Below the pieces are notes generated by a model. The model saw only the letters and a program-made list of their open reading frames with translations. It had not been told where the DNA came from and made no database searches. From the NCBI RefSeq assembly GCF_017982655.1, contig NZ_JABXYX010000067.1:1-41366 (forward strand): a stretch of DNA of 41,366 nt. Reading direction: 5' to 3'. This document shows, one piece after another, positions 5,523 through 26,529 of this stretch (position 1 is the stretch's first letter; every line of letters starts with the position of its first letter). The stretch is from Brasilonema sp. CT11 (GTDB taxonomy: Bacteria; Cyanobacteriota; Cyanobacteriia; Cyanobacteriales; Nostocaceae). The translations under genes were made by a program, and so were the position numbers.

Positions 5523-6138
5523 TTCTTTTAGGTATTGTCAAAGGACAAGGCAGGTTATGAAAGATAAAAGATAATCATACTTTTGCGTTTTTATTTTTTT
5601 CTTTCGCCTTTCCTCATTCCCTAAACTAGATTTAGGAATGCTCTTCCTAATCCTACTTTGGGTATTCAGCTATCACAAACTAGAAGACCAGTGCCCTGTG
5701 AGGTGGGGTTGTATTTGGTGAACTGAGGGGCTTCGCTTTGAAAATTAGAAATCCCTGCTCATTACTCTGCCTAAACAGCCAGGAATTAGATATTTTGTTA
5801 CATAAATTAATTTTTGACATTTTGCATAAAACTCTGGCTGTTTGATCTGAGTTACATACACAAGGAGGATAAGGAAGCTTAACCCTCAGTTGAAATACTA
5901 ACCCAATCGCATTCGTGAGAGGTTAAGGTAACAGACATTTGTCAATAAGTAAGGAGACTTAAAATATGACCAAAATCGGGGGTAGAAAACACAATTTTTG
6001 AAAAGGCGATCGCAGCGAAAGAACTAATTCAAACCTAATAACGAATTAGTACAGATAACACCACAAAGGTTCGGCTAGAGCAAGCGCATTTCCAGTTAGA
6101 ACCTGAGTACCTTTAGTTTCAATTTGGAGTTTTAAATT
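5523..6138. other. Intergenic region between hlyD-like gene and the candidate cargo gene
   Basis: This 616-base stretch contains an imperfect inverted repeat at about 5614-5639 (TCCCTAAA then TTTAGGA) that could be a transcript-end hairpin, although no T-run follows. It also has purine-rich Shine-Dalgarno-like segments (AAGGAGGAT near 5862, AAGGAG at 5951) and an 11-codon open frame at 5966. The cargo gene probably has its own promoter here, but I could not mark it. Confidence 0.4.
5966..6001 (+). CDS. Possible 11-residue leader peptide
   Basis: An ATG preceded by AAGGAG at ideal distance opens an 11-codon frame (MTKIGGRKHNF) that ends in TGA. It lies 137 bp upstream of the 396-residue candidate cargo gene. 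The strong ribosome-binding site suggests real initiation, either as a regulatory upstream ORF or as the stub of a decayed gene. The peptide resembles nothing I recognise, and chance is a fair alternative. Confidence 0.25.
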   Translation: MTKIGGRKHNF

Positions 6139-9354: not shown

Positions 9355-9664
9355 AATATTTCTTCTCCAAAAATAGAATACTATGAGTAAGTTTTTGTTG
9401 GAACAGAGGGTTAAGTGTGCTTTCCCTCCTTCTGTCCATAACTCAACTGAAAAAGCTATAGTTTTCTGCAAAATTTCTATAAAATCTCAAATATTAATTT
9501 CTGTAACAAAAGCAGTAATTTCTGGTTGTCTAGCCAAAGTAACAATTGAGAGATGACTAATGCAAAGCGTAGTGAACAGTCACTCAGCACAACATCCTCG
9601 ATTCATTATATTGGAGCACCTAATCTGATGCTTCACTTGGTTGTTCAGAGAATGAAAAACAATC
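9355..9664. other. Divergent promoter region between the C2-like gene and the sigma-factor gene
   Basis: About 310 bases separate the two divergent starts. The segment 9638-9668, just before the sigma-factor gene, repeats 7776-7806 (27 of 31 bases identical, centred on ATGAAAAACAATC). No consensus promoter could be assigned. Confidence 0.4.
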
Positions 9665-9712: not shown

Positions 9713-10609
9713 ATGGATGAGCAACTCAAACAGCTCGTCCAACAGGCGCAACGATACGCTTCTCAGTCTGAAGAACGAGAGTTGGCGTTAACTCGGCTAG
9801 TTGATGAAATATTGCGATCATGTAAAATTGCTCGTCCATCTATCGGCCAACCTCTATTTAGTATTTATAAGGAAATTTACGAACAATTACGAAAAAAACT
9901 TTTTTATAACATTGATGAGAAACTTGACAAATATAACCCAACATTTCTTCCTGTGAGGACATGGATCAACGATTTGCGGAATCGCACTTATCAAGAAGTC
10001 CTGAACGATGAACAACTCAAAAAACTGGCACTAGAAGCCCAACAACACCCACCACTAACTGAGTTACGGCAGTATGCTTTAGGGGAACTGGTTGAGGCAA
10101 TTCGTCTATCGGGCAAGCTTGCTCACCCGCATCGACAAAGATTCTCGCCTCAGTTTTATGACTTAATTTATGAAGAAGCTGTTAACAAAACACTAACTTA
10201 TGTTTGCCGAAAAATTAACACTTATGACCCTGATAGAGGTAACAAAAAGTTCATGAACTGGGTAAATTTCCGATTAGATCGATATATTATAGAATCCTAT
10301 CACGATCTCACAGATTCGAGGCTCAGCGAATTACCTTCACTTTCTGATTTAGAAATGATAGTACAGCAAGAAGAACCACCTTCATTATTTGAGATAATTC
10401 GTGAGATAATAGAAGAAGATAGTGAAAATCTTTTTAAGCAAGCTCATATCAAAAATCGACCAGATGCTAATTTTCAAGCTATAGCTTTAGCGAGATTTTC
10501 TGGAAAAAGCTGGGACGAAATTTCAGTAGAATTTGACATTTCAATATCAACTCTAAGCGTTTTCTATCAGCGTTGTTGTAATAAATTTCGCTCTCAATTT
10601 AGAGAATAG
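9713..10609 (+). CDS. Sigma-70-like transcription factor, copy 1 (heads the TpsA/CHAT module)
   Basis: This protein of about 298 residues is a clear paralogue of the product of 23056-23958. Shared blocks include the start MD(E/K).L.QLV, LTRLVDEILRS, LRQYALGEL(V/I)EAIRLSG, FSPQFY, EAVNKTLTYVC, KKFMNWVNFRLD and a C-terminal helix-turn-helix-like end (ALARFSGKSWDEIS, then STLSVFYQRCC.KFR). The FMNWVNFRLD block resembles sigma region 2 and the end resembles region 4. The start at 9713 is chosen because it aligns with the paralogue; an earlier in-frame ATG is at 9665. The tpsA-like gene follows after 141 bp, so this factor probably controls or is co-expressed with the module. It is a divergent sigma type found in cyanobacteria; promoter recognition is unknown. 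Confidence 0.75.
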   Translation: MDEQLKQLVQQAQRYASQSEERELALTRLVDEILRSCKIARPSIGQPLFSIYKEIYEQLRKKLFYNIDEKLDKYNPTFLPVRTWINDLRNRTYQEVLNDEQLKKLALEAQQHPPLTELRQYALGELVEAIRLSGKLAHPHRQRFSPQFYDLIYEEAVNKTLTYVCRKINTYDPDRGNKKFMNWVNFRLDRYIIESYHDLTDSRLSELPSLSDLEMIVQQEEPPSLFEIIREIIEEDSENLFKQAHIKNRPDANFQAIALARFSGKSWDEISVEFDISISTLSVFYQRCCNKFRSQFRE

Positions 10610-10750
10610 TGAATTCCTCAACAGAATTTTCAAACTGGATATTGCTGATGCCACCAAATGCGCCTTTGCGAACTGGAGTAAAAACCACACTTAACAAATG
10701 AAACTCGAACTTACCGCTACGCCAATGGAAACACATACTTTTTTGGCAGT

Positions 10751-13700
10751 ATGAAAGTAAACTACCCCAAAGTAAAAGCCCTCAAATTTATACAATGTCC
10801 CATCACATACTGGCTACTTAGTGCGGGCATTTTAGTTTATCTGTTAACTACTAAACCTTGTGCGGCACAGGTTGTCCCAGATGCTACTCTACCCAATAAC
10901 TCCATCGTTACACCCAATTGCACCAACTGTGAGATTACAGGCGGTACTACACTAGGCAACAATCTGTTTCATAGCTTTGAGCAATTTTCCATTCCCACAG
11001 GCGGCACTGCTTTTTTCAACAATCCTGGGACAATTGAGAATATTATTAGCCGTGTTACAGGTAAGTCCATTTCTAATATTGATGGGCTAATTCGCGCTAA
11101 CGGCACAGCCAACCTGTTTTTACTCAATCCCAATGGAATTATTTTTGGTCCTAATGCTTCACTGAATATCGGTGGTTCTTTTTTGGCAAGTACGGCGAGT
11201 AGCCTAAAATTTGCTGATGGCTCCCAGTTCAGTGCTACTAATCCCCAAGGATCACCCCTGCTGACTATCAGCGTTCCGATTGGCTTGCAATATGGGGGGA
11301 ATGCGGGAACCATCCTCAATCAATCCCAAGCAAAAAATAGCAGTGATCAAGTTGTTGGTTTACAGGTGCAGCCCGTTAAAACTTTAGCGCTCGTGGGCGG
11401 TAATGTGAGGTTAGATGGCGGCTCTTTCCAGGCTGCGAATGGTCGGGTTGAGTTGGGAGGATTGGCAGGAGCAGGAACAGTTGGGCTTCAGCTTAATGGC
11501 AACTATTTTTCCTTGAGTTATCCACTAGATGTAGAAAGAGCAGATGTATTGCTGACTAATGCAGCTAAGGTTGATGTAGCTGATAGAGGCAGCGGTAGTG
11601 TGGCAATTACCGCCCGGAACTTAAATATAGAAAGAGAAAGTAGCATTTCTGCTGGTATCAAGCCGAGCGTGATAACCATAGCCAACAGTTTTGTTCCTGG
11701 AGATATTACACTCAATGCTACTGGGCTAATGACAACTAATCAGAACAGCTTGGTAGAGAACGTCGTTGCGATTGGTGCTAGGGGTCATGGAGGTGATATT
11801 AACGTTTATGCAAATAAATTTGAATTAACTGGTGGGGGACGTCTTCGCACCCGTACCTTGGGCAGGACGAGGAGTGATGCTGGTGATATCAATATCAAGG
11901 CAGGAGATATTTACATCAGTAATCCAGCTTACAAGGTGCCATCTAAGGATCCGACTCTAGAAGATAAACCGGCACTGGATGCTAGTAATTATAAATACGA
12001 TGGTGGTGATAATGGTTTTGGTCAAGGACGTAGCGGCAATATATCACTAGAAGCTAATGGCTCTATCTCTTTAATTGGGCTAGGTGTAGTAGGGGAGGTA
12101 AACCCTGAGAATAAGGTGATCTCCACGTACAGTGGGCATAGGGGAATGGGTGGCGGAAATATCTCACTGAAAGCCAAAGGTTCTATCTCTTTATCAAATG
12201 CTAATCTTGTTACCACCAGCATTACCGGAAATGGTGGTGCCGGAGATATATTATTACAAGGCGATGCCTCTGTGTCTTTGGCTAACAATAGTCAACTCGC
12301 TGCCACAAGTTATGACAGACGGAATCCTGGAAACATCAGATTGCAATCCAATGGTCCAGTGTCATTGCAATTTAGCTTCGTCACAACTGACATCCGTAGC
12401 AAAGAGCCAAAATCTGATGTTGGAAATATCTCTATATTCGGGCGGTCAGTTTTTATCACTGATGGTTCAGAAATATCAGCTAAAACGTCCTCTGACCCTA
12501 ATGGTAAATTTGGTGGCAGTTTTGGCGGTAGCATTCAAATCAATGCCACAGATGTGGTTGAAATTTCCGGCATGAGTCCATTATTTTTTGATAGTCAACT
12601 ATTTAAGAACAGTTACTCAAAAGCAGTATACAGCACATTAGTGACGACTGCTGATGCAAAAGCCGAAGCTCCCGCTGGTAACATCGTTGTTAATACTGAT
12701 ATTTTGCGTGTAAAGGATGAAGGAAGTTTAAAGGCAGAAACTCAAGGAGCTTTTCCAGGAGGAAATATTACTGTCAATGCCCGTGTCGTTGAGTTGACTG
12801 GTGGCGGCAAAGTACTCACTAGTGCCTCAGACAAAGGTAATGCAGGTAATATTACCTTCAACGTCTCTGATAGCATCATCATTTCAGGCACTAACCCCAA
12901 TTTTGATGAAATATTTAACGAACTCGCAAGAAGGTTTTCTACTAGACAAGAGGTACAGGGAAAATTAGGTGCTGTTGGTGGTGATAGTGGAATCTATGTG
13001 AGCAGTCAAGGCTTAGGACGGGCAGGTAACCTAGAAATGACAGCTCGTTCTATCAGATTGGATGACAAAGGCAAGCTTGTTGGTCAAACTGCTTCGTCTG
13101 ATGGTGGCAATATCACCCTTAACCTGAAAGACTTACTGCTTCTGCGTCCCAACAGTCAGATTTCTACTTCGGCTGGCACTGCCGAAGGTAGCGGTAATGG
13201 CGGTAACATCACCATCAATACCCCCAATGGCTTCATCGTCGCTACCCCTGGTGGAAATAGCGATATCACTGCCAATGCATTCAGCGGTCAAGGTGGTAGG
13301 ATTACTATCAACGCTACTGGTATCTTTGGGATGGTGCAACGCACTCGAGAAGAACTTCAGCAGATATTAGGAACAACCAACGCAACTGAACTCAATCCCA
13401 GTCTGCTGCCAACTAATGATATCACTGCCATCTCGCAAACTAACCCTTCCTTGAATGGCATAGTAACTATTAACACACCAGATGTTGACTTCAGTCGGGG
13501 GTTAGTTCAATTATCAGCAGAACCAGTTAACGTGCAAGTAGCACAGGGTTGCCAAACAACTGGAACACAAACGGCTGGAAAACAATCATCGTTGGCTTCC
13601 ACTGGCAAAGGGGGATTAGCTATTAATCCTTACGAACCGCTCGGCAGCAGTAATATTTGGGAAGATGTGCCAGCATCAACACAAACAGGGACAATTAGAC

Positions 13701-13816
13701 AAAGAGAAAGCGTAGCAACTGTGCCTGACAAAATTGTAGAGGCGCAAGGGTGGGTGATAAATGAAAAAGGGGAAGTTTTTCTCGTGGCTGAAGATAGTCG
13801 CTGTAGTCTGCGGTGA
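10751..13816 (+). CDS. Filamentous haemagglutinin-like TpsA surface protein
   Basis: This 1021-residue protein has a signal peptide (hydrophobic YWLLSAGILVYLL, cleavage near AAQ at about 40). A two-partner-secretion domain follows (about 40-310) with NPNGIIFG and repeated GG.GNI.. beta-helix rungs. A long right-handed beta-helix body extends to about 930. The C-terminal region has two conserved-looking cysteines (AQGCQ and SRCSLR) and the EAQGWV.NEKGEV motif that I recall from cyanobacterial members. It should be exported by Sec and then through a TpsB pore, but no TpsB gene is in the window. Its last 56 bp overlap the CHAT protease gene, implying coupled translation. A role as surface adhesin, or as substrate or receptor linked to the protease, is inference. 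Confidence 0.9.
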   Translation: MKVNYPKVKALKFIQCPITYWLLSAGILVYLLTTKPCAAQVVPDATLPNNSIVTPNCTNCEITGGTTLGNNLFHSFEQFSIPTGGTAFFNNPGTIENIISRVTGKSISNIDGLIRANGTANLFLLNPNGIIFGPNASLNIGGSFLASTASSLKFADGSQFSATNPQGSPLLTISVPIGLQYGGNAGTILNQSQAKNSSDQVVGLQVQPVKTLALVGGNVRLDGGSFQAANGRVELGGLAGAGTVGLQLNGNYFSLSYPLDVERADVLLTNAAKVDVADRGSGSVAITARNLNIERESSISAGIKPSVITIANSFVPGDITLNATGLMTTNQNSLVENVVAIGARGHGGDINVYANKFELTGGGRLRTRTLGRTRSDAGDINIKAGDIYISNPAYKVPSKDPTLEDKPALDASNYKYDGGDNGFGQGRSGNISLEANGSISLIGLGVVGEVNPENKVISTYSGHRGMGGGNISLKAKGSISLSNANLVTTSITGNGGAGDILLQGDASVSLANNSQLAATSYDRRNPGNIRLQSNGPVSLQFSFVTTDIRSKEPKSDVGNISIFGRSVFITDGSEISAKTSSDPNGKFGGSFGGSIQINATDVVEISGMSPLFFDSQLFKNSYSKAVYSTLVTTADAKAEAPAGNIVVNTDILRVKDEGSLKAETQGAFPGGNITVNARVVELTGGGKVLTSASDKGNAGNITFNVSDSIIISGTNPNFDEIFNELARRFSTRQEVQGKLGAVGGDSGIYVSSQGLGRAGNLEMTARSIRLDDKGKLVGQTASSDGGNITLNLKDLLLLRPNSQISTSAGTAEGSGNGGNITINTPNGFIVATPGGNSDITANAFSGQGGRITINATGIFGMVQRTREELQQILGTTNATELNPSLLPTNDITAISQTNPSLNGIVTINTPDVDFSRGLVQLSAEPVNVQVAQGCQTTGTQTAGKQSSLASTGKGGLAINPYEPLGSSNIWEDVPASTQTGTIRQRESVATVPDKIVEAQGWVINEKGEVFLVAEDSRCSLR

Positions 13817-16712
13817 CATCCTCCCACACCATAATCTACTTAGGGTGTACCGCCGGATACTAAGATTAATCTTTTTAATAATTTTGGGATTAATTACGAC
13901 TTTATTTGTCACTGTTCTGCTAGTTCAAGGGGTTGCAGGAAATGTTGCAAAAAATAATTATGCGATACGCGTAGCATCAAGCCCCCGGCTTATCGCTCAT
14001 ATGCAAGCGATCGCCGCAACCTCCAACACCCAAACATTTCTACAACAAGGTATAGAACTTTACAATGCAGAACGATTTTCTGAAGCAATAGGAGTCTTTC
14101 AGCGGGCATTTGCCAACAGCCAAGGAGATAACCTCAACCAAGCCCTGGTGCTGCGCTATCTTTCCTTAGCTTATCAGCACCTGGGGCAGTGGGAGGAAGC
14201 AGAAAAAGCAATCTTCCAAAGTCGTCAGTTGCTGGAAAATCAGAAAAACACAACTAACACTCAGGCTTACTTAGACGTTCTGGCGAAAATTTGGAACACT
14301 CAAGGTCGTCTGCAATGGGCAAGAGGACATTGGTCTGTTGCTTTAGAAAGCTGGAAGCAAGCAGAGGCTACCTACGAAAAAAGTGGTAATCGTGCGGCTG
14401 TTGTTGGTAGCTTAATTAACGAAATAATAGCATTGCAATGGTTAGGTTTAAGCCGTCAGGCACTTGCAGGGTTGAGCCATCAGCCACTAGTGGAATTTCC
14501 AAACGTCGAGCAAGTGATAAAGCGGATAGAGCAAATTATACAACAGGAATCAGATCCCAACCTCAAAGCATCCCAATGGCAAAGTCTTGGTGAAGTTCTC
14601 AGACGCATTGGCAATCTTTCAATGTCTGAGACGTTTTTACAGAAGAGTTTGCAAGTGGCTCAAGAATTTCAATTGAATAAAGCTGCTAACTCTGTACTTT
14701 TGGAGTTGGGTAATACCAAACGCGCTTTAGCTAACAGAGCTATAGTCATTAATAAGCAAGAAGACGCTAAAAAAGATATTCGTGCTGCTATTGATAATTA
14801 TCAACAGGCTGCTGCATCTCCTGCTTTTCGACTCCAAGCTCAACTGAATCTATTTAGCCTCTGGGTGGAAACTGGGGAATGGTTAGAAGCTGCCAAACTG
14901 CAACCCCAAATTCAGCAGTCGTTAGCTAGCTTACCTGCCAGTACAACAAATGTCTATGCCAGACTCAACTTTGCCCGGAATCTAACTTGTCTTCTACCAA
15001 GTCTTGACAAAAATTCAGTTTTATGGTCAAGCTGCACTAGCTTAAAGCAGCTTAGAGAACGGCCCTCAAAGCCAAGCGAAGAAATCACATCTCCTCCCTC
15101 ATCGCAGGAAATCGAACAGATAATTGCCACTGGGATTGATGTGAGTCGTAGTTTGAAAGACAGCAAAGCGCAATCCTATGCTTTGGGACAACTGGGTGAA
15201 CTGTACGAGCTAACCGGAAAGTTTTCAAAAGCTCAAGATTTTACTCAGCAAGCTCTTTTGTTAGCCGAAGAGATTCAAGCTCCTGATGTGCGCTATCGTT
15301 GGGAATGGCAGTTGGGACGTTTATGGGAAAAACAAAAGAATAGACAAAGAGCGATCGCTTTTTATAAAAATGCGTTTAACTCCCTCAAGTTCGTTCGCAA
15401 TGATTTGCTCACCATCGATACAGATGTACAGTTCTCCTTTCGGGAAAACGTCGAACCTATTCACCGCCAGCTAGTTGATTTGCTATTACAGACTGAGGAT
15501 AACTCTCAACTAAACCCAAAACTAAACCAAGAAATTTTCAAAGATGCCATTTATGCGATCGACTCTCTCCAATTAGCTGAACTGGAAAATTTTCTAAATT
15601 GTAACCTGAGCCAAATAGTGCGGCTGAACCTGGACGATGACAAGTTAGACTTGAAAGCAAAATTGGACAAGTTAGATGCGAATACAGCATTTATTTATCC
15701 AATCATTCTAAAAGATAGATTAGAAATCATACTCTCGTTACCCAAGCAAAAGTGGATTAAATACACAACTTCTATAAGCAGGAATACGTTAGAATCTAAG
15801 CTCAATGAATTGCGGGGATATCTGACACGAAATGATTCTGGTCGCGACGAATATGAACCTTTATCTGGTCAGCTCTATGATTGGCTGATTCGACCAGCTG
15901 AGAAATACTTGAACTCAAACCAAATTAAAACCTTAGTGTTTATATTGGATGGTTCCTTACGAGATATTCCGATGGCTGCTTTGTGGGATGGTAAACAGTA
16001 TCTTGTGCAGAAGTACGCTGTCGCGATCGCTCCAGCACTGCAACTGTTAAGTCCCAAGCCTTCAGAAAAAAAACAGTTCAAAGCTCTCATTGCAGGTTTG
16101 ACCAAAGGTAGCACATTTTCTATTGAGGGAAGCACCTTTAATTTTGAGCCACTATCAAATGTCAAAAATGAAGTAGAGAAAATAAAACAAATTTTGCCTA
16201 TATCTGAAGAAATGCTCGACGAGCAGTTTCAAACCAAGAATTTACAAAGTAAGCTTTATTCATCTTCTTACCCCATTGTCCACCTTGCAACTCATGGTCA
16301 TTTCAGTTCTAATCCACAAGAGACATTTATTCTGAGTGCGCCAAATGTTCCTATCAATTTAAATAAGTTACAAGAATTACTTCAAACTAGGAAACAAAGT
16401 AGACCTGACGCGATTCAATTACTTGTCCTGAGTGCTTGTCAGACAGCCACAGGAGATAAACGGGCTGCTTTGGGACTGGCTGGTGTAGCAGTAAAAGCAG
16501 GCGCACTCAGTACACTCGCATCACTGTGGTCAGTTAACGATAAGTCCACTGCTTTGTTTATGGGTCAATTCTACGAGCATCTTGTAAAACAACAGATGAC
16601 AAAAGCTGCAGCACTCAGGCACACTCAACTTGACTTATTGCAGAATAGACAAGGTGAGTATAGACATCCATTTTATTGGTCACCTTTTGTGCTGGTGGGT
16701 GATTGGCTTTAA
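13761..16712 (+). CDS. TPR-CHAT protease with N-terminal signal/anchor
   Basis: This 983-residue protein is a TPR-CHAT cysteine protease, related to caspases and separase. A hydrophobic segment at about 34-58 (LIFLIILGLITTLFVTVLL) is a signal or membrane anchor. TPR helices fill about 85-560 (FSEAIGVFQRAF, ALVLRYLSLAYQHLGQWEEA, YALGQLGELYELTGKFSKAQ). The CHAT domain occupies about 640-983, with catalytic His845 in LATHGHF and Cys893 in LSACQTATGD. The ATG at 13761 lies inside the tpsA-like gene, after a purine-rich AAGGGTGGGTGATAA. A GTG at 13845 is an alternative that would remove the overlap. Export would put this protease in the same compartment as the TpsA-like protein. Substrates are unknown. 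Confidence 0.88.
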   Translation: MKKGKFFSWLKIVAVVCGDILPHHNLLRVYRRILRLIFLIILGLITTLFVTVLLVQGVAGNVAKNNYAIRVASSPRLIAHMQAIAATSNTQTFLQQGIELYNAERFSEAIGVFQRAFANSQGDNLNQALVLRYLSLAYQHLGQWEEAEKAIFQSRQLLENQKNTTNTQAYLDVLAKIWNTQGRLQWARGHWSVALESWKQAEATYEKSGNRAAVVGSLINEIIALQWLGLSRQALAGLSHQPLVEFPNVEQVIKRIEQIIQQESDPNLKASQWQSLGEVLRRIGNLSMSETFLQKSLQVAQEFQLNKAANSVLLELGNTKRALANRAIVINKQEDAKKDIRAAIDNYQQAAASPAFRLQAQLNLFSLWVETGEWLEAAKLQPQIQQSLASLPASTTNVYARLNFARNLTCLLPSLDKNSVLWSSCTSLKQLRERPSKPSEEITSPPSSQEIEQIIATGIDVSRSLKDSKAQSYALGQLGELYELTGKFSKAQDFTQQALLLAEEIQAPDVRYRWEWQLGRLWEKQKNRQRAIAFYKNAFNSLKFVRNDLLTIDTDVQFSFRENVEPIHRQLVDLLLQTEDNSQLNPKLNQEIFKDAIYAIDSLQLAELENFLNCNLSQIVRLNLDDDKLDLKAKLDKLDANTAFIYPIILKDRLEIILSLPKQKWIKYTTSISRNTLESKLNELRGYLTRNDSGRDEYEPLSGQLYDWLIRPAEKYLNSNQIKTLVFILDGSLRDIPMAALWDGKQYLVQKYAVAIAPALQLLSPKPSEKKQFKALIAGLTKGSTFSIEGSTFNFEPLSNVKNEVEKIKQILPISEEMLDEQFQTKNLQSKLYSSSYPIVHLATHGHFSSNPQETFILSAPNVPINLNKLQELLQTRKQSRPDAIQLLVLSACQTATGDKRAALGLAGVAVKAGALSTLASLWSVNDKSTALFMGQFYEHLVKQQMTKAAALRHTQLDLLQNRQGEYRHPFYWSPFVLVGDWL

Positions 16713-16772
16713 CATTTTCAACGCAATTTCCCACCTATAATTGAAAAACCAAACGCCACCGAGATAACGGCT

Positions 16773-17498
16773 ATGCCAACAGACCATCTCAAAATCGCGT
16801 TACCAACTACCGACGAACTACCTTGTTCAGACGATATACCTGTGGATAACGAAGACCAGAACTTTGTGCCCAACTTTTTACTATTCTTGTTGAACACAAT
16901 TTGGGCTGCGCGGATGGATTGGTTCTTTGGGGTAGATATGGCAGTGTATCACACCACAGGAGTGAATCCGAGAGTACCCGTAGTACCGGATGGCTTTTTA
17001 AGTTTGGGAGTAGAACGGAAAAAAGGCGGAAAATCTCGTAAAAGTTATGCTGTTTGGGAAGAAAACGAAGTCGTTCCCATCATGACATTGGAAATGGTTT
17101 CCCATAGCCCAGGAGGAGAATACGACGAGAAACTAGATATTTACGCCAAACTCGGTGTGCTGTACTATGTTATTTACAATCCTGAGTATTGGCGACGCGA
17201 CCAACATCAACCGTTTGAAGTCTATAAGTTGGTAGATCAGAACTATCAATTGCAAATCCGTGAACCCTATTGGATGCCAGAAGTCGGCTTAGGTATTGGA
17301 AGATACCAAGCTGTAGTTGGAGGGATTCAACAGGAGCTACTATCTTGGTATGACGAACAAGGAAACCGCTATTTAACAGCAGAAGAAATCGCACAGACAG
17401 AACGTCAACGGGCAGAACAGGAACAACAACGAGCAGAACAATTGGCGCAGTATTTGCGATCGCTTGGTATTGACCCTGATAATCTACCAAGTGAATGA
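16773..17498 (+). CDS. Uma2-family (DUF820) PD-(D/E)XK nuclease-like protein
   Basis: This 241-residue protein belongs to the Uma2 family, which is greatly expanded in cyanobacteria. The conserved parts are VPDGFLSLG, LEMVSHSPGGEYDEKLDIYAKLGV, YYVIYNPE and the Gln/Arg-rich C-terminal helix ERQRAEQEQQRAEQLAQYL followed by LGIDPDNLP. The Asp of VPDG and the Glu of LEMVS are the likely nuclease-fold acidic residues. It follows the CHAT gene by 60 bp on the same strand and may share its transcript. Members are abundant and often unlinked to function, so its link to the module is weak. Confidence 0.85.
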   Translation: MPTDHLKIALPTTDELPCSDDIPVDNEDQNFVPNFLLFLLNTIWAARMDWFFGVDMAVYHTTGVNPRVPVVPDGFLSLGVERKKGGKSRKSYAVWEENEVVPIMTLEMVSHSPGGEYDEKLDIYAKLGVLYYVIYNPEYWRRDQHQPFEVYKLVDQNYQLQIREPYWMPEVGLGIGRYQAVVGGIQQELLSWYDEQGNRYLTAEEIAQTERQRAEQEQQRAEQLAQYLRSLGIDPDNLPSE

Positions 17499-17793
17499 AA
17501 GTATCTGTAGGGTGGGTGTTTATGAATAAATTATTAAGTAGCCGTCATGAACTGCGTACACTAGAACACATGAAAATTGATTTTTTCTTCTGAGTTCTGA
17601 GTTCTGAGTTCTGAGTTCTATTTTCAAGCTAGGCGAGGCAAAAAGTGAGGACACTGCGTTGCAGAGCCAGTGTTGAAGACGGATTTCCCGTCGCAGGGAT
17701 CTGGCGTTGGGGTTCCCCCCGTTGTAGCAAGTGTCCGGGTGTGGATGTTGCTCCCACTTTATTGCCGTTGTGTTACAGTACAAGCATTTACAG
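17499..17793. other. Convergent intergenic region with repeats
   Basis: The two CHAT modules meet here. The segment contains a heptamer array (17588-17620) and a GC-rich stretch at about 17650-17720 (TGTTGAAGACGGATTTCCCG, then CTGGCGTTGGGG) of a type I recall as dispersed in filamentous cyanobacteria. I saw no intrinsic terminator and no gene. Confidence 0.5.
17588..17620. repeat. Heptamer array (TTCTGAG)x4.7, STRR type
   Basis: Four perfect TTCTGAG units and a partial fifth (TTCTA) lie in the convergent gap between the two CHAT modules. Confidence 0.95.
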
Positions 17794-18477
17794 CTATCGC
17801 TGTTGCACTTGTACTCTTCTTACCCGTCCTAAGTCAACTTGTTGGACAGTGCCATCATTCATTTCTATGCGAAGTGTTCCTTTATTTGGTACTGTCAGCA
17901 CTGAAGCACTACTTCCACCAGGAGATGATTGAGCACCTGATAAATTAACAGCACCACGAACTTGTACTTTGTAAGAACCTATTTCCTGTCTACTAACACT
18001 AACTATTTGCGGTTTGATTCGCATTATTACAGGTATTTGGCGTCTGAATTGCAGACGTTTAACTTCTCGCTCACTCTGTGCAAAACCAGGAACAGTAGCA
18101 CCTTTAGGGCTTAGGCTTCCAATTTTTTGAGCATCAGTGTCAAATAAGTCAACATGGGCTTCTACCATTCCTCCTTCTTGGCAAAAAGCATCTACGGTAA
18201 CTACAACTTCTCCCGGTCCTGCCATGAAGGTATAGAAGTGTTCGTTTAAACTATCTTTATCTATAGAACCTGTTATTTCATTTGAGGTTAGTGGCGTTGG
18301 TTTATCTCGATCTGTTGATTGAGCTTTAACTAAATTGACAGAAGTACTAAGAACTATTAATAAACAGGATGCTGTAGTTACAAGATATTTTTGAAACTGA
18401 TTTTTTTGATACTTTGGATGTGTTATTTTCACTACTTTTCGCCTCAACAAGAGTTTTAGTTTTGGTCTATTTAGCAA
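17794..18477 (-). CDS. Secreted beta-rich protein, PPC-like, last gene of the CHASE2-CHAT module
   Basis: This 227-residue protein has a basic N-terminus and a hydrophobic signal segment (about 30-52, LVTTASCLLIVLSTSVNLV) with likely cleavage at VKAQ. The mature part begins with PLTSNEITGSIDKDSLNEHF and FMAGPGEVVVTVDAF, a pattern like bacterial pre-peptidase C-terminal (PPC) beta-domains. Beta segments follow to a Gly/Ser-rich linker and a basic end (RVRRVQVQQR). It lies 87 bp downstream of the DUF928 gene on the same strand, probably in one operon. The PPC comparison is by eye. Function is unknown, and a periplasmic or surface partner of the sensor protease is possible. Confidence 0.65.
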   Translation of the reverse strand: MLNRPKLKLLLRRKVVKITHPKYQKNQFQKYLVTTASCLLIVLSTSVNLVKAQSTDRDKPTPLTSNEITGSIDKDSLNEHFYTFMAGPGEVVVTVDAFCQEGGMVEAHVDLFDTDAQKIGSLSPKGATVPGFAQSEREVKRLQFRRQIPVIMRIKPQIVSVSRQEIGSYKVQVRGAVNLSGAQSSPGGSSASVLTVPNKGTLRIEMNDGTVQQVDLGRVRRVQVQQR

Positions 18478-18564
18478 CTTGCATCAATCACTCATCGCAG
18501 GTTCTACACTTTTATGCATTGAGTAACAAAACTTCACAGCCAATTGCTAACTAAAACATCAAGT

Positions 18565-19266
18565 TTATTGTTTGAGAGTGCAGCATGGGACAATTTTCTC
18601 AGGAGCGATCGCTCTCAAATTCAGAGATTGCAACAAATTAGTCCAGCCAGTATCATTGGTATGGCGCATCTCCAACTGTAGCGCCAAAGCATCAACCCAA
18701 AACCCTTCTTTGATATATAACTCTGCACGTTCCTGTTGTGATTTTTTCTCTAATTGACGTACAAGAGTAGGACTTGGTTCTATTCGTCGTATCCATCCGT
18801 CAACACCAGCATTATTAGTTCCGTTTTTTGTGTCACAAATAATTGTAAAAAACCAGTGATACAACTTGTTTTTCTCCAATTGTTTTGGCAAGCGCAAGCT
18901 GACAATCCCCGGAATTTCTGACAGTGTTATCTGAACTGGCTTAATGACGCCATAGCCGTTTTCGTCCTGTAACGACAATCTCGCAGCGAGGGATGAATTA
19001 GATGCATAGGGTACATAAAACAAGATTGTGGGAGATTCAGCAGTACTCAAGGCTTCGCCAGTAGCAGGTACTAAAGCGATTAAATTTTTGTTTGCAGATG
19101 TTTTTGTTGCTGGACACCTACCGCGATCGCCTCCATCTAGACGGTTCGGAGGTCTTCCGCCTCCAGATGGATCAGAGTTTGTTTGAGTTTGAGCCTGGAT
19201 TGGTAAAAAGCCAGTTGCAAAACTCATCAGTATCCAACTTAAAGAAAGAAATATGTGCCGAAACAT
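18565..19266 (-). CDS. DUF928 family secreted protein
   Basis: This 233-residue protein begins with a signal peptide (MFRHIFLSLSWILMSFATGF, cleavage near IQAQ). The DUF928 hallmarks follow: GGRPPNRLDGGDRGRCP, NLIALVPATG, SPTILFYVPY, PGIVSLRLP, YHWFFTIICD and WIRRIEP. Family members are found mainly in cyanobacteria, often next to CHASE2 or CHAT genes (recalled), and no biochemical role is known to me. Two Cys (GRCP, IICD) may form a periplasmic disulfide. It follows the CHASE2-CHAT gene by 108 bp on the same strand, so both are likely co-expressed and share the periplasm with the CHASE2 domain. Confidence 0.85.
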   Translation of the reverse strand: MFRHIFLSLSWILMSFATGFLPIQAQTQTNSDPSGGGRPPNRLDGGDRGRCPATKTSANKNLIALVPATGEALSTAESPTILFYVPYASNSSLAARLSLQDENGYGVIKPVQITLSEIPGIVSLRLPKQLEKNKLYHWFFTIICDTKNGTNNAGVDGWIRRIEPSPTLVRQLEKKSQQERAELYIKEGFWVDALALQLEMRHTNDTGWTNLLQSLNLRAIAPEKIVPCCTLKQ

Positions 19267-19374
19267 AGTTAAAAGTAGGAAATTTTAACAGTTATCAGTT
19301 TTATCACTTGAATTACGATTGCTGAGTCTTTAGGGACATGCACTCGCGTTTGGTTCGGTCGCTGCGGACTATAG

Positions 19375-21687
19375 TTACGTTGTTTGTGCGTAAGTCTTGA
19401 CAATATAAGCCATCAAAGCACCTGTCATCACCAAAGTCAGTGCTGAAGGAATCAAAGGAACCCAAACAGCTTGGGTAAAAAAGCCAAAGCAAATGCAACT
19501 ATTAGCCAAAAGTGCGACTCCGATTGAGATTCCCTGATTCCGTGGTGAACGGAATGTAAGAGCGAGAACACCTCCAACCATTGACCAGCTCCAAACCCAC
19601 AATGTGTTCCCTAATGGTGACCAGGACGACAACAAAGGTCTACGATCTAAGACAGCGCTGAGAATTTGACTGACCATTTGGGTGTGAACAATCACTCCTG
19701 GCATTTTACCTAAAGGTGTCGGGTGGTTGTCCTTGGTACTTGCACCGACATAACCAATTAGGACAATTCGATCCTTAATCAATTTGAGCAAGTCCGAATT
19801 GTGATCATTGAGAACTTGTGTCAGCGAGACTTGGGAAAACCGATCCGTTGGACGGTAATCAATGAGTAATTGATAACCTAGCACATCATCGTTGGGTAGT
19901 TGGTATCCTCCAGAATTAGGTTTCAACACCTCAAAGACAACAGAATTAATTGATAGGTTTTTACCTCGGTTAAACTCATAGCGTGTATTGGCAGACAGGT
20001 AATGGCGTATTAGCTGAAAGCTGAAAGCGTATGGTGTCGTGCAGGGTGAGTTCGCTCGATTCATAGCTTCCATAGCTAAGGCATAGCGACGTATAGTTTC
20101 ATCTGGATCGGGTACAAACGCATCACTGAAGCCCAAGCGTTCTGGGGGAACTTGAGGAGGAGGGGCAATTGTAAGCGAACCATTGGACTCACCAACTTTA
20201 CATATGACAACAGTGCGATCGCTATGACGCAAACGTTCAACTAAGTTATCCCAGCCTTCTTTCTGACGACTATCTCGATAAATATCCAGACCGATGACTT
20301 TTGGTTGATATTTCTCTAGTTTCGTCAACAGCTGCTCTACTGTCCGGTCACTAAGTGGCTTGTCAAATTGTTTCACATCATCATCATTGACGGTGACAAC
20401 TAAAATGTGCTTGTCCTGTGTTCCTGAATTTGGTCGCAGCCGCATAACTGTATCATAAGTGTTTAACTCCCAACTTTGCAGTATCCCCTGCGAGCGTGTT
20501 CCCATCACCAAGCTGGTGACAACCAAACTTGTTGCCAAAATTGTTTGAGCGCGACGCCAGAAAAAGACTCTTGGGCGAGAAGGTTGTGTCAGGGGAACTG
20601 GTGTTCTAGATGCGCCTAACTCTGCCCATGTTAAAGGTACAGCACAGCGATGTTGGCAAATCACTGGTAACCAGCTCGCACAGGGAAATTCATTTTCTAG
20701 ACCTTGCAGTCGTTGTCGTGCTTCTTGTACCGCCCCATACAGAGGCTTACCACTAGCAAATGCTTGCAGAAAATACTTCAAAAATGTTTGTGCTACCTTG
20801 TCTGGTACTAGCTCCCGCATGACGATCATTTGTGGAATATGCAGATGTAGTAGCTCCCACGCTAATCCTAAACCATCACAGGAGTTGAAAATTGCCAATT
20901 GCAACCCACCTGCAACTGCTGTTTGTAAAGCATATCTGAGTTCCTCAAGAGATAAGCTATCAGTTTGGTTGAGATAAATTCGTCCCTTTTCACCCTCAGT
21001 CTGACTATGACCGGCAAAAAATAAAATATCCCAGTGTTTTTCCCAAAGCTGGTCGTTTAACTCTTGGCGTTGTGGTTCTACAAGAATTATGGTTTGTGCG
21101 TCAGGTAAATTCTCTAGCTGTTGCTTGTCTTCCTCAAGTTTAATGCCTTCGCTATTGCCCAGAATCGCGAGAATTTTCACTTTGTTTTCACGGATTGACT
21201 TCTGCTCCTGTCGTGCGTATTCTAGAGTAGCAAGTCCAATTTCCGCAAATTTGTAGCGCTCTAACAAATCCCAATGATGCCAAGGTAACTGCCATACTTG
21301 CTGGTTGTCGGTACAAATGAGCACCCGCACCTGGTCGGATATGCTGATTTTTTCTAGCCACTTCTCGCGAATAGAGCAAAAGGACTCTGTTTTGAGCCAA
21401 CTATTTAGGCGATCGCCCAACTCCTTATCTTGGGTACTGCACTCCTCCCTCAGCTTTCTGAGGGAACCATCAATTCTGAATCGTTTAACTTTAATCTCAC
21501 GAGTCACCTTTCCCAAGCTGCGATAAGTTTCCTGCCAACCACTATACTGTTTGACAAGTTCGGGTGCGCTTGGTAAGTTACCAGTAATTTCCGTTTCGGG
21601 ACGTTCACCTTCTGCGCCAATTTCTAGCGTGACTCGAAAGCCCTGTTGGAAATCACCATCTAATTTGAGGACAATTAATTTAGTCAT
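19375..21687 (-). CDS. CHAT protease fused to a CHASE2 membrane sensor
   Basis: This 770-residue membrane receptor-protease has an N-terminal CHAT domain (about 100-345) with His227 in FFAGHSQTEG and Cys270 in IFNSCDGLGLA, so the catalytic pair is intact. A first membrane helix (about 381-396, TILATSLVVTSLVM) leads to a CHASE2 domain (about 400-680: WELNTYDTVMRLRP, VIGLDIYRD, GVIVHTQMVSQIL). Three closing helices lie at about 690-765. By CHASE2 topology the sensor is periplasmic and the protease cytoplasmic, an input-output layout normally seen with kinases or cyclases. The start codon lies inside a heptamer repeat. DUF1822 is 52 bp upstream and DUF928 108 bp downstream, the gene company I recall for this type in cyanobacteria. 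Ligand and substrate are unknown. Confidence 0.88.
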   Translation of the reverse strand: MTKLIVLKLDGDFQQGFRVTLEIGAEGERPETEITGNLPSAPELVKQYSGWQETYRSLGKVTREIKVKRFRIDGSLRKLREECSTQDKELGDRLNSWLKTESFCSIREKWLEKISISDQVRVLICTDNQQVWQLPWHHWDLLERYKFAEIGLATLEYARQEQKSIRENKVKILAILGNSEGIKLEEDKQQLENLPDAQTIILVEPQRQELNDQLWEKHWDILFFAGHSQTEGEKGRIYLNQTDSLSLEELRYALQTAVAGGLQLAIFNSCDGLGLAWELLHLHIPQMIVMRELVPDKVAQTFLKYFLQAFASGKPLYGAVQEARQRLQGLENEFPCASWLPVICQHRCAVPLTWAELGASRTPVPLTQPSRPRVFFWRRAQTILATSLVVTSLVMGTRSQGILQSWELNTYDTVMRLRPNSGTQDKHILVVTVNDDDVKQFDKPLSDRTVEQLLTKLEKYQPKVIGLDIYRDSRQKEGWDNLVERLRHSDRTVVICKVGESNGSLTIAPPPQVPPERLGFSDAFVPDPDETIRRYALAMEAMNRANSPCTTPYAFSFQLIRHYLSANTRYEFNRGKNLSINSVVFEVLKPNSGGYQLPNDDVLGYQLLIDYRPTDRFSQVSLTQVLNDHNSDLLKLIKDRIVLIGYVGASTKDNHPTPLGKMPGVIVHTQMVSQILSAVLDRRPLLSSWSPLGNTLWVWSWSMVGGVLALTFRSPRNQGISIGVALLANSCICFGFFTQAVWVPLIPSALTLVMTGALMAYIVKTYAQTT

Positions 21688-21711
21688 TGATCATTAGTCA
21701 TTAGTCATTGG
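21684..21711. repeat. Heptamer array (TCATTAG-type) overlapping the CHASE2-CHAT start codon
   Basis: Four 7-base units, TCATTGA, TCATTAG, TCATTAG and TCATTGG, run from the start codon of the CHASE2-CHAT gene (21685-21687 is its ATG on the minus strand) into the 52-bp gap to DUF1822. Unit number would change the ribosome-binding region. Confidence 0.85.
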
Positions 21712-21739
21712 TGATTCTTTACAAAGAAGGAAAGGACAA

Positions 21740-22663
21740 CTAAATGACAAAATTTTCTGTGACGCTGACATCACCAAGAGCAACTTTAACGCTAAAACTG
21801 TCTCCTAGCTCCCCACTAAACTCTAATTGAATACTTTGATTGTCGCTTCCTGCATGGGTATTGATGACTGCTTCTCCATTTTCATCCAGCACCATGAGTT
21901 GCAAATTCGAGGGTAGATATGTATAACCTTGTGGGGGTTGCACTTCCACGCTGATGTCTATTTCCACCTCAGATGCTGGGCTAATTGCTACAATCATCGT
22001 GACTGCTTGATTCGGTGTTCCCAGTGCAATCAGCTTGCACCGCTTAACTTCCACAGCTTTTCTAAAGCTGAAGGCGAGCTGAGTTGCTTTTGGATCAAAA
22101 ATGGTATCCAAGGCTTGCCAACTTGTTTCAAAAATATTTTCAAACCATTTGCTTAGATTGATTGCGGGTCTAATTTGATTCAAGTGTCTGGGCAATTCTT
22201 CGAGCGATCGCAACTGGCTCAAAGGTAACTCAAACGATGTCACCTTTTCCACAAATCCCAGCAATGTTGCTTCTCGCAATGATTCAGAAAGCTGCACTGC
22301 AACGTAGCCAATCCGTTCTGACCAGACTTCTGCGGGAATACAGACAAATTCTGTATTAAATAACACTTGTCTGCACTCCAACTTACCGCGATTTTTCACC
22401 ACCAAATCGGCAACATCCATCAGCATCTGCATTGCAGGGTTGCAACTGTCGCTTGTCTCCCACTCCGTTTCAAATCCTCGGCACTGTAGATAAAAATTCA
22501 CTGCATACACTGCTAGAGTATTGAGATAAACTTGTTTGGCTTTTTGAGGATTGACTTGGTAACGTCGAAACTGTTCTGCTCGTGAATGGGCTGATAAAGC
22601 AAGCGGAACAGTGAAACTCCAGCACTCAATTTGATGGTTCATGGTTGATTGAGGGACGTTCAT
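21740..22663 (-). CDS. DUF1822 family protein
   Basis: This protein of about 307 residues shows the DUF1822 pattern: an early PL..HS.AE.FR segment (VPLALSAHSRAEQFRRYQ), KVYLNTLAVYAVNFYL-like text at about 43-58, VLFNTEFVCIPAEVW, IGYVAVQLSESLREATLLGF and a beta-rich C-terminus (about 225-307, PPQGYTYLPSNLQL). The start MNVPQSTMNHQIE at 22663 is preferred over an upstream ATG at 22810, whose extra 49 codons run through repeat DNA. The family is cyanobacterial and of unknown function; it is often found beside CHASE2 proteins (recalled). The soluble, cytoplasmic-looking protein sits between the sigma factor and the CHAT receptor, so it could be a substrate or regulator of the protease. That is inference. 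Confidence 0.85.
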   Translation of the reverse strand: MNVPQSTMNHQIECWSFTVPLALSAHSRAEQFRRYQVNPQKAKQVYLNTLAVYAVNFYLQCRGFETEWETSDSCNPAMQMLMDVADLVVKNRGKLECRQVLFNTEFVCIPAEVWSERIGYVAVQLSESLREATLLGFVEKVTSFELPLSQLRSLEELPRHLNQIRPAINLSKWFENIFETSWQALDTIFDPKATQLAFSFRKAVEVKRCKLIALGTPNQAVTMIVAISPASEVEIDISVEVQPPQGYTYLPSNLQLMVLDENGEAVINTHAGSDNQSIQLEFSGELGDSFSVKVALGDVSVTENFVI

Positions 22664-23055
22664 ATTATTGTCTCTAATGGATTGAACTTTCAAGAAATAC
22701 AGGGAACAGGGAACAAAACAATTCAAAGGAGGGCTACGCCCCGCTTCGCTAACAAAAAAATTCTTAATGAGCGAATTTTGAATTGATAATTTTGAATTTG
22801 AGCGCAGCAAGTGGGAACAGGGAACAGGGAACGCTTAACTTTCAAGAAACACAGGGGTGTAAGGGTGTAAGGGAAAAAGGTGAATATTCATTCGTAGCGG
22901 GTGGCGCGCCGCCCGTGGGGTGCTTTCAAGAAACACTCTTGAAGGAGGGAAAGAGGGAGAGAAAAGTTAATGCTCAATAATTCTTTTTCCAAACTTCCAC
23001 ACTCTTTCACTCTTTTTTTTCTTTTCTTCCCATCCGTCTTTCCTTCTTACCTGTT
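22664..23055. repeat. Repeat-rich gap between sigma factor copy 2 and DUF1822
   Basis: This 392-base region holds GGGAACA heptamers (22699-22713 and 22813-22832), two copies of CTTTCAAGAAA(C/T)ACAGGG (near 22689 and 22839), a third CTTTCAAGAAACAC near 22922, and GC-rich palindromic text (GGCTACGCCCCGCTTCGCTA; GTGGCGCGCCGCC). It looks like accumulated intergenic repeat DNA. No gene is supported, although a minus-strand frame crosses part of it. Confidence 0.75.
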
Positions 23056-23958
23056 CTATATATATTGTTTGAAGTTTGGACGAAACTTTTTGCAGCAACG
23101 TTGAAAAAAACTACTCAAAGTTGGCAGTGGAATTCCCAAACTTTTGGAAATATCTTGCCAATTATCTCCGGATAATCTTGCCAATGCTATTGTAGAAAAG
23201 TTTGCATCTGGTCTATTTTTTATATGTGCCTTTTTAAAAATATTTTCATAGTCTTTTTCTAGATAATTGCGAAGATTTTCATACAAAAAATGCGTTGTTT
23301 CTTCTGGCGGAGGAAAGACTTCTAAATCAAGAAAGGAAGGCAATGTAATGAGATTTTTTGGATCAGGCTTAGAGGTTTCTAATAGAGTTTTATCTAATCT
23401 AAAATTCACCCAATTCATAAATTTTTTCTCACCTCTTTCTGGGTCATAATAGTGAATGTTTTGACAGACATAGGTCAAAGTTTTATTAACTGCTTCGTCA
23501 TAAAGTAGTTCATAAAACTGAGGAGAAAATCTTTCTCTATGAGGATGACAAAGCCTACCGGAAAGCCGAATTGCTTCAATCAGTTCTCCTAAAGCATACT
23601 GACGCAACTCAGTTGATGGTAGGTGATGTTGAGCCTCTAGTGCTAAATGTTTCAGTTGAACATCATCCAGGATTTCCCTAAAAGCTTGATTCCGTAGGTT
23701 ATTAGTCCATACCCTCACATTTGTCCGTTTCGGATTGTATTGGTTGATTTGTTCATCAATGTCACACAACAGCTGCTGTCGGACTTGTTCGTAAATTTTT
23801 TGATAAACGCCAAATAGAGGTTGATTTCCTAGTGGACGGCAAATTTTGCGCGATCGCAGGATTTCATCAACCAACTGTGTCAAGACTAACTGTCGCCCCT
23901 CAGTGTGAGGAGCGTGCTGTTGCACCTCTGTTACTAGTTGTTCGAGTCGTTTATCCAT
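23056..23958 (-). CDS. Sigma-70-like transcription factor, copy 2 (heads the DUF1822/CHASE2-CHAT module)
   Basis: This 300-residue paralogue of the product of 9713-10609 is similar along its whole length. It starts MDKRLEQLVTEVQQH and shares LTQLVDEILRSRKICRP, TELRQYALGELIEAIRLSG, HPHRERFSPQFY, EAVNKTLTYVCQ, YDPERGEKKFMNWVNFRLD and a C-terminal helix-turn-helix-like segment (LARLSGDNWQDISKSLGIPL). The middle linker (about 215-245) differs most between the copies. It precedes DUF1822 on the same strand across a 392-bp repeat-rich gap. The duplication suggests that each module has its own sigma-like regulator. It is possibly an alternative sigma factor; anti-sigma control is not visible. Confidence 0.75.
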   Translation of the reverse strand: MDKRLEQLVTEVQQHAPHTEGRQLVLTQLVDEILRSRKICRPLGNQPLFGVYQKIYEQVRQQLLCDIDEQINQYNPKRTNVRVWTNNLRNQAFREILDDVQLKHLALEAQHHLPSTELRQYALGELIEAIRLSGRLCHPHRERFSPQFYELLYDEAVNKTLTYVCQNIHYYDPERGEKKFMNWVNFRLDKTLLETSKPDPKNLITLPSFLDLEVFPPPEETTHFLYENLRNYLEKDYENIFKKAHIKNRPDANFSTIALARLSGDNWQDISKSLGIPLPTLSSFFQRCCKKFRPNFKQYI

Positions 23959-24399
23959 AGTCTTGAAAGTAGCACTCTCGTTGCAACTCTTTAACTAGAG
24001 GTTGCTGCGGTTTAGAGGTTAGAAAACGTTGCTTCAACAACCCCATGCTCAGATAATCTGACTTTTCACGTCATATAGTTAAACGACAAAGGTTAAAGAG
24101 AAAAGGGCAGCCTTTACCGCTTGATCCTAAAGCCGCTTTTAAGACGAACCGTAAAAAGTAAGTTAGAGAATGGGTTCGTTAAACCTTCACTGTCTTTGCT
24201 GCGTGCGTCTTGTGTCTTACACACTTTCCTTATCCCCAGTCCTTTATCGGGTTTGGTGAACCAAGGTACGTTGTAAGCTCGAATCATAATCCTGTGATTG
24301 TAACTCCACGTATAGCGCCAGTAGTTATGTGTTTTTTTACAAAAATTAATATTTGAACTGATAAAGTTGCTTATTTTGCTTGTACAAGTCCCATATCTA
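23959..24399. other. Intergenic region without a supported gene
   Basis: About 440 bases upstream of sigma factor copy 2, which should include its promoter. A 105-codon minus-strand frame (24114-24431) crosses the region but overlaps the tyrosinase terminator, has an odd Lys/Arg/Asn composition and no ribosome-binding site. I do not accept it as a gene. Confidence 0.5.
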
Positions 24400-24435
24400 A
24401 AAAGAAAGGTGAAGACAGTTTTAGTCTCCACCTTT
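24400..24435 (-). terminator. Rho-independent terminator of the tyrosinase gene
   Basis: On the minus strand, AAAGGTGGAGAC, a 7-base loop and GTCTTCACCTTT pair with one mismatch, then CTTTTTAG follows at once. It begins 11 bp after the tyrosinase stop codon, as expected for an intrinsic terminator. Confidence 0.8.
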
Positions 24436-25870: not shown

Positions 25871-26529
25871 AAGTTACTTGCTAAGTCCTGTTTGCTAAGT
25901 GCAAAATCTCTAGTTTTGCGCTACTACTATTAGTACTCACAGTGACTTTTTGGTTTTACTGAAAAGGTCAACTTTCTGTAACAATTCTTTATTTTTCACT
26001 AAACATATTTTCTAATCTTTCTGCAGTAAGGCTTTTAGAGATTTCAACGAAATGTGTTTCTTAATTGGCATTGCTTGCGCCTAAAGCGAAGCGTGAGATG
26101 CTCACCGGAATGCACCTGAGCGAATAAACCCGTAAAAGGCAAATAAGAGGTAAGGGAAAATGGGGAAGATGGGTTGAGTCACAGAAGGGGTAAGCGAGAA
26201 ATTTCCCTGCCTGTGTCACTCTGTGTGTTTTGCTCGTCTTTCTCCTTATGCCCATGTCTTCTTTTTTGCCTGACATTATAAAGAGTTTAAAGCATCAAAC
26301 AAACTTATTGTTTATCACAAGGAAAGAGGAAAGAACCTGATGAAAGATTAAATTTTCCACGAAGACAGTAAAAGAAGTTTGCCTAATAAGAAAAATTTGC
26401 TGACTATATTGTTAACATTCGTAAAATTGGAGTGTTAAGGACTATAAACATGATAGGAACCTAGCTAAACTAGCAATAAGAGCATTTGTACTGTTACTTC
26501 TAAAAAAAAGGTGTGGTGCCTAATCCTCA
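25871..26529. other. Intergenic region between divergent tyrosinase and SbcC genes
   Basis: This 659-base region contains both promoters, which I could not locate, and a middle block (about 26065-26280) of repeat-like text (GCGCCTAAAGCGAAGCG, ATGCTCACCGGAATGCACC). A 71-codon minus-strand frame within the block is not a credible gene. GTAAGGCTTTTAG at about 26027 recurs at about 35193. Confidence 0.5.

Follow-up and report, generated by a model that had tools for sequence, protein, structure and literature searches.

Here we describe a locus of Brasilonema sp. CT11, lying between positions 9713 and 23958 of contig NZ_JABXYX010000067.1, which reads as one bipartite system: a core of sigma factor, DUF1822, CHAT-CHASE2 and DUF928 genes, often facing an exported TpsA/TPR-CHAT arm. 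The window analysed is this contig in full (41,366 bases), from a genome of 8.8 Mb. The locus is real and conserved, and it is probably regulated as a unit. We consider it about an even chance that these genes form a single receptor-protease/sigma-factor signalling system, in which a CHASE2-gated CHAT protease would free an extracytoplasmic function (ECF) sigma factor held by DUF1822, and the sigma would in turn activate its own operon and genes for exported proteins; the CHAT cleavage and the sigma-promoter steps are those that we infer.

A first-pass annotation had described two paralogous sigma genes, each heading a run of same-strand genes, with the runs converging at 17.5-17.8 kb. All of its genes were found in place, and the two sigmas share 60% identity. 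The plus-strand run begins with sigma-1 (9713..10609; reading frame open from 9665), an extra paralogue heading the arm, followed by a TpsA-like exported protein (10751..13816; PF05860 E=5e-69, TPS domain 233 bits; N-terminal hydrophobic segment 14-32), the TPR-CHAT protease (13761..16712; PF12770 E=1e-62, CHAT 213 bits; hydrophobic segment 27-45) and a Uma2-family protein that ends the run (16773..17498; PF05685 E=9e-11), matched in genome G003 only, among 20 loci of the genus. On the minus strand, sigma-2 (23056..23958) is followed by DUF1822 (21740..22663, with the ATG likely at 22663 and the frame open to 22810; PF08852 E=3e-65, 221 bits) and by a receptor protease, CHAT-CHASE2 (19375..21687; CHASE2 E=5e-62, CHAT E=6e-14), composed of an EACC2-like N-terminal region, CHAT and a membrane-anchored CHASE2 sensor. 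Then come an exported DUF928 protein (18565..19266; PF06051 E=1e-47; early hydrophobic segment) and a last exported open reading frame (ORF; 17794..18477) with an N-terminal hydrophobic segment, matched at the G003 locus only, among 100 loci. This ORF has no Pfam match over the cut-off, PPC included, so that its former label of PPC-like was left unconfirmed.

The core is conserved well beyond this genome. A DUF1822-seeded search of genome contigs provided the best 80 of 391 loci, which were annotated with profiles made from the window proteins. Sigma lies directly upstream of DUF1822 in 67 of the 69 loci with enough flank, a receptor-type CHAT lies downstream of DUF1822 in 67/73, and DUF928 follows the receptor CHAT in 48/62. 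Beyond the receptor CHAT, 47 loci hold more than 6 kb of sequence, and there a TPR-CHAT was found in 28 (25 convergent, 3 on the same strand) and a TpsA-like gene in 29; more specifically, the TPR-CHAT accompanies 28 of 40 receptors of CHASE2 type versus none of 7 of the other type (p=8e-4). Since these loci were chosen by DUF1822, the count seeded on sigma genes matters: in the seven genomes of the genus (that of CT11 included), DUF1822 lies directly downstream at 29 of 41 loci of the sigma family, compared with 0 of 75 other Sigma70_r2 genes (75 of 85 rows, the 10 weakest having been dropped, 5 of these members of the sigma family). Of the 12 family loci without DUF1822, two are the sigma-1 copies, two are broken or lie at contig ends, seven are lone genes that resemble each other (one in each genome), and one is a further case.

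The first-pass annotation had also called for a test of enrichment of the sigma family near CHAT genes, and such an enrichment was borne out in the CT11 genome: 5/7 family loci lie within 10 kb of a CHAT versus 1/11 other sigma genes (11 of 13 Sigma70_r2 rows, without the 2 weakest). The genome holds 67 CHAT matches, 65 of them over the cut-off, and no more than 12.5% of its length falls within 10 kb of any of these 65; across the seven genomes of the genus, the matches number 46 to 67 per genome. The picture of two equivalent modules, each sigma with a CHAT of its own, was by contrast not supported. The widespread unit is a core with one sigma, often facing the TpsA/TPR-CHAT arm, and eight arm-bearing contigs of other genomes carry one family sigma each, as far as the contig ends let us see.

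Both CHATs were described earlier as having intact His and Cys, and these residues proved invariant in the alignments, in 71/71 receptor-type and 28/28 TPR-type proteins. A profile of the first 340 residues of the receptor CHAT finds 85 ORFs in 100 loci, and a CHASE2 profile finds 69; the other receptor CHATs end in other long C-termini. CHASE2 is an extracytoplasmic sensor domain. Because the clear membrane segments of CHAT-CHASE2 (719-737 and 741-759) come after CHASE2, its CHAT would be cytoplasmic. Among the TPR-CHATs, 21/28 have a hydrophobic segment beginning within the first 75 residues, the window copy included, which is predicted to be exported or membrane-anchored; judging from these segments, the TPR-CHAT is probably outside the cytoplasm. 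The two CHATs thus probably lie on opposite sides of the membrane, and TPR-CHAT could not then act directly on sigma-1, which counts against each CHAT serving its own sigma. At one locus (L045, contig G000:C97, 387-1349), the sigma ORF runs into a receptor-CHAT fragment and a promoter of the single type described below is still present, apparently a decayed copy of the system.

The sigma factors are divergent. Neither passes a Pfam or NCBIfam cut-off, and sigma-1 scores 23.1 bits against TIGR02937, short of its curated ECF cut-off of 42.9; by its sequence it would be a divergent member of the ECF group (group IV) at best. The identification as sigma factors comes from weak profile matches to ECF sigmas of known structure (best E 0.004), together with an AlphaFold model (predicted local distance difference test, pLDDT, 90.3) whose 50 listed structural matches are by title all sigma factors or transcription complexes. 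Both window sigmas have tandem sigma-2 domains, and most of the family has one. In sigma-2 the extra N-terminal copy of sigma region 2 (23662..23958, minus strand; family profile E=1e-26) resembles the second copy, with 30% identity over 84 residues (E=7e-13 for that single comparison). Tandem sigmas form one clade, in which sigma-1 clusters with the G003 copy alone, separate from sigma-2, with moderate support. Two family sigmas (on G012:C576 and G160:C98) reach about 410 aa; they match sigma-2 in tandem and have a long insert ahead of sigma-4. Each of the seven genomes of the genus also has one lone family sigma (L051, L164-L167, L176, L179), near which the profiles find no DUF1822 or CHAT; these are apparently a conserved separate branch.

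DUF1822 is the presumed anti-sigma or adaptor. Some loci keep sigma and DUF1822 with no CHAT found (L039, L043, L071, L116), and for this reason these two look like the closest partners. The model of DUF1822 (pLDDT 88.6) predicts an alpha/beta domain, a flexible stretch and an immunoglobulin (Ig)-like sandwich. Position 201 is Arg in 62 of 63 proteins and Lys in the remaining one, within a segment whose length varies from 13 to 38 residues. Arg201 (codon at 22061..22063, minus strand) comes directly after the least certain stretch of the model (mean pLDDT 52 for residues 191-200 and 79 for 201-210) and precedes the first strand of the sandwich, at residue 206. This conserved Arg by a flexible stretch, together with the precedent of Craspase (type III-E CRISPR), makes DUF1822 the likeliest substrate of the CHAT, and Arg201 a candidate cleavage site.

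A motif search upstream of the sigma genes yielded a strong motif, scoring at least 14 bits in 54 of 72 non-redundant upstream regions (in-sample, the motif being derived from the same regions) versus 1 of 1440 shuffles. Loci with a single sigma-2 domain have three boxes, AAATGTAAAGTTTTGTAACAA, then TTTGCATAAAA, then GAGA..ATAGA. Tandem loci have TTAA-TT-TGTAACAAAA..TAA..CTGG, with GAGTAACAAT farther on. In the window, the tandem form precedes both sigma-1 (9490..9510, plus strand, footprint continuing to ~9560; 23.0 bits) and sigma-2 (24333..24353, minus strand, footprint continuing to ~24275; 24.7 bits), so that both facing runs begin at the same class of promoter-like site. Among sigmas with a typed motif (35/72 are untyped), promoter type matches sigma type in 10/10 tandem and 26/27 single cases. 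A matrix of the first two boxes, trained on the upstreams of 23 sigma genes and applied to the 80 loci, finds 43/68 sigma genes (not an independent count), 7/28 TpsA genes and 5/396 others; the Fisher test of TpsA versus other upstreams (p=1.6e-6) is overstated, for five of the seven matches are in Nostoc and the other two share a single Scytonema locus, which leaves less independent evidence.

In the seven genomes of the genus, a strict pattern found 29 sites, versus 1 for the reversed pattern. Twelve of the 29 lie ahead of TpsA genes (11 of them immediately, with TpsA the second gene in the other case), and in 7 of the twelve a TPR-CHAT follows on the same strand, in 6 with a TpsB-like gene between (Pfam confirms TpsB on one). 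Sigma genes follow 4 sites, an exported protein plus CHAT 2, and the ABC exporter 2. Three precede a PEP-CTERM-like exported protein (labelled by the look of its sequence, the third by an identical site only) and three a gene of 772-795 aa, a MauG-type peroxidase by Pfam in the one tested; single sites precede a trypsin-like gene (again by look) and a run with PhyH and nonribosomal peptide synthetase (NRPS) genes, and one looks like chance. The predicted regulon is thus rich in exported and surface proteins, and this rare promoter motif, common to sigma genes and part of the TpsA arms, suggests a programme of the envelope and cell surface. Exported trypsin-like protease genes (L288, L298 and L254, Pfam having been run on L288 only) lie behind the same promoter as sigma genes, and that of L288 adjoins a COP23-type exported protein.

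In 156 genomes of the class, the pattern has 36 sites versus 16 for the control. Core sigmas were defined as matches with E up to 1e-50, a threshold set after seeing the data. The 25 genomes with one have 23 sites versus 2 control sites, and the other 131 have 13 versus 14 (p=8e-4, or 0.005 excluding the CT11 genome). If any family match up to E=1e-10 is counted, 62 genomes have 26 sites versus 8, and the 94 without a match have 10 versus 8 (hand count). Within the window's order, 7 core genomes hold 21 sites and 8 others hold 3. For six of the 36 sites, a family sigma begins no more than ~230 bases downstream. The third box, outside the search pattern, follows 8/17 sites of core genomes versus 0/13 elsewhere (30 of the 36 sites, the CT11 genome aside), and 20/29 sites of the genus set, with a background of 7.6%. 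As the pattern is restricted to sigma-bearing genomes and the third box has a near-fixed spacing, we favour a model in which boxes 2 and 3 would be the -35 and -10 elements of this sigma and box 1 an activator site. A second model, with box 1 overlapping a -35 and box 2 a housekeeping -10, is less favoured.

Several observations weigh against our interpretation. Outside the window's order, 18 core-sigma genomes hold just 2 sites. Tandem sigmas being one clade, the match of promoter type and sigma type counts as one event, and L106 and L120 break it. The motif is absent directly upstream of 21/28 TpsA genes and of all 24 TPR-CHAT genes tested. The conservation of Arg201 could be structural. Finally, box 1 resembles HLR1, the box bound by the global regulator RpaB (consensus as given in the relevant part of PMC11633204), with two mismatches or fewer in 42/72 sigma upstreams versus about 1 expected, so this sigma may not be what reads the motif.

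This last point is the basis of the strongest alternative, in which the shared motif would be an RpaB (HLR1) box joined to a housekeeping promoter. The TpsA arms would then be targets of a light or redox regulator in parallel with the sigma system, and the sigma would not read the promoter. In its favour, the first box fits HLR1 and the second, TGCATAAAA(T), is compatible with a -10 element. RpaB is, however, present in nearly all cyanobacteria as far as is known, and such a near-universal regulator would not lead one to expect a two-box pattern that rises above chance only in genomes with the core sigma family, also within one order, and that is accompanied by a third box at near-fixed spacing; we judge this alternative unlikely, if still the most serious of those considered.

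An immunity or cell-death module, in which the CHAT would self-activate on an invader signal and kill or signal through sigma, seems to us improbable. It has been inferred in print from the domain context of EACC2-caspase systems (in passages of PMC8195603), and a NACHT/EAD10 protein is encoded at 29854-32394 in the same window. However, PADLOC on ten window proteins gave partial, domain-level matches, with none to sigma, DUF1822, CHAT-CHASE2 or DUF928, and the predicted regulon, rich in exported and surface proteins, speaks against it.

Slightly less probable again is that the CHAT acts on sigma directly, by cleaving or activating it, with DUF1822 as a mere scaffold. Proteolytic control without an anti-sigma has been proposed for ECF54 sigmas, which lie near CHAT genes (in the section of review PMC8999054 that treats them), and a tandem sigma-2 domain, where present, could inhibit the sigma until cleaved off; yet most family members have only one sigma-2 domain, and DUF1822 is retained in some loci with no CHAT found. 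Two independent sigma/CHAT circuits facing each other by coincidence, the model of the first-pass annotation, are very hard to credit, since the presence of a sigma and a CHAT in each window run is set against a second sigma seen in the window and G003 only, that is in 2 genomes, a common single-sigma convergent arrangement, and a TPR-CHAT probably outside the cytoplasm.

Coming back to the single signalling system, its steps would be as follows. DUF1822 would keep sigma inactive; CHASE2 would detect an extracytoplasmic signal and activate the cytoplasmic CHAT; the CHAT would cut DUF1822, perhaps after Arg201 near the flexible linker; and the freed sigma would turn on its own operon and an exported and surface regulon of TpsA, TPR-CHAT, trypsin-like proteases and exporters. 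The most specific form of this proposal is a CRISPR-free counterpart of Craspase, in which a CHASE2-gated CHAT would cut DUF1822 after the conserved Arg, and the freed ECF sigma, tandem in one clade, would read a new three-box promoter driving its own operon, the facing TPS/exported TPR-CHAT arm and a wider exported regulon. We put it forward tentatively, as somewhat short of probable.

The Craspase-like logic without CRISPR, raised already by the first-pass annotation, is a sensible reading: no Cas protein, Cas7-11 included, was found among 18 window proteins by Pfam and 10 by PADLOC, a scan covering proteins up to 34.8 kb. In type III-E CRISPR, as reported in part of PMC10028731, Csx30 inhibits an ECF sigma (CASP-sigma) and is cleaved by the TPR-CHAT protein Csx29. 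The two systems have in common a CHAT, a two-domain partner with a cleavable loop, an ECF sigma and an autoregulated locus, cleavage and autoregulation being predicted here. They differ in the presumed trigger, here a membrane CHASE2 sensor, and in the protease, as the cytoplasmic CHAT here is not the TPR-CHAT. The partner, too, may differ: Csx30 is in the PDB as 8EEY (same source), and the DUF1822 profile has no significant match to PDB chains by sequence, and the list of its structural matches is taken up by the Ig-like domain.

Closer still are the EACC2-caspase systems. Systems of ECF sigma, DUF1822 and EACC2-caspase, including CHASE2 forms, were already predicted by Kaur et al. (eLife 2021, PMC8195603), who in the passages concerned describe a constant N-terminal region with a caspase-like domain and a variable C-terminal receptor such as CHASE2, linked to an ECF sigma and DUF1822. 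The same features were found here, namely adjoining sigma and DUF1822 genes and a constant N-terminus with CHAT and a variable C-terminus. No EACC2 Pfam model matched the N-terminal region, and the name is borrowed from the passages of that paper. DUF1822 is a TPR protein in its description, and an alpha/beta domain with an Ig-like sandwich in the model obtained here. DUF928 is not in its text, and its EACC2-caspase passages make no mention of the TpsA/TPR-CHAT arm, a shared promoter or tandem sigma-2 domains. CHAT genes also lie beside ECF54 sigmas, for which the cited section of PMC8999054 proposes proteolytic control and no anti-sigma; here DUF1822 is an almost constant partner, a distinction drawn by description. 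HetF shares a CHAT domain in filamentous cyanobacteria, and identity with it was rejected (35.2 bits against the NCBIfam HetF model, with an equivalog cut-off of 1200). SigJ of Nostoc punctiforme is likewise an alternative sigma of a filamentous cyanobacterium, with a defined promoter and regulon, which are predicted here, and its J-Box GGGaAtacT is unlike our motif (SigJ passages of PMC6495340). In the literature covered, which leaves most subscription journals aside, no paper by title and abstract start dealt with the secretion arm or the promoter, and nothing was found on tandem sigma-2 domains. The system therefore belongs to a kind already predicted in the cited passages, and the linkage of sigma, DUF1822 and CHAT is not new in principle; new here are the exported arm, a testable promoter and regulon, the tandem-sigma-2 clade and a candidate cleavage site.

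Other parts of the window were also considered. A single-type promoter-like site (736..765, plus strand), identical in G003, lies upstream of an ABC exporter with C39 peptidase and cyclic nucleotide (cNMP)-binding domains (858..3866, plus strand), a predicted regulon member whose box 1 (725-745) ends 113 bp upstream; the arrangement of exporter and HlyD protein behind such a site (858-5522) is repeated in G003 (L259). An orphan tandem-type site (5794..5814, minus strand; 22.0 bits, full footprint) is flanked by the HlyD gene and a 396-aa ORF; downstream of it no gene was seen on the minus strand, and the window has no Rfam match. This site could drive a small RNA or peptide beside the C39 exporter. 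A gene for a tyrosinase/polyphenol oxidase has a weaker box-1 match ~105 bp upstream (25975-25995, minus strand; 18.4 bits), in which the second box is absent. A terminator-like hairpin (24405..24435, minus strand; 12-pair stem and T run) lies between this gene and the sigma-2 site; it is weak as evidence, as the scan gives 13 such sites versus 13.0 expected. The NACHT protein mentioned above (minus strand) has EAD10 and NCH2 domains, an architecture of conflict-system type, and is near but outside the locus.

To our knowledge, the targets cut by the dozens of caspase-like CHATs in the filamentous members of this genus are mostly unknown. This type of locus offers a candidate CHAT substrate in DUF1822, a candidate cleavage residue, an output in the sigma and a predicted promoter with target genes, and so bears on the question of transcriptional control by CHAT proteases outside CRISPR. 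The presence of this promoter on TpsA arms links secreted adhesin-like proteins to the circuit and, if the CRISPR-free Craspase proposal is true, cytoplasmic and extracytoplasmic caspase-like proteases would act in one circuit.

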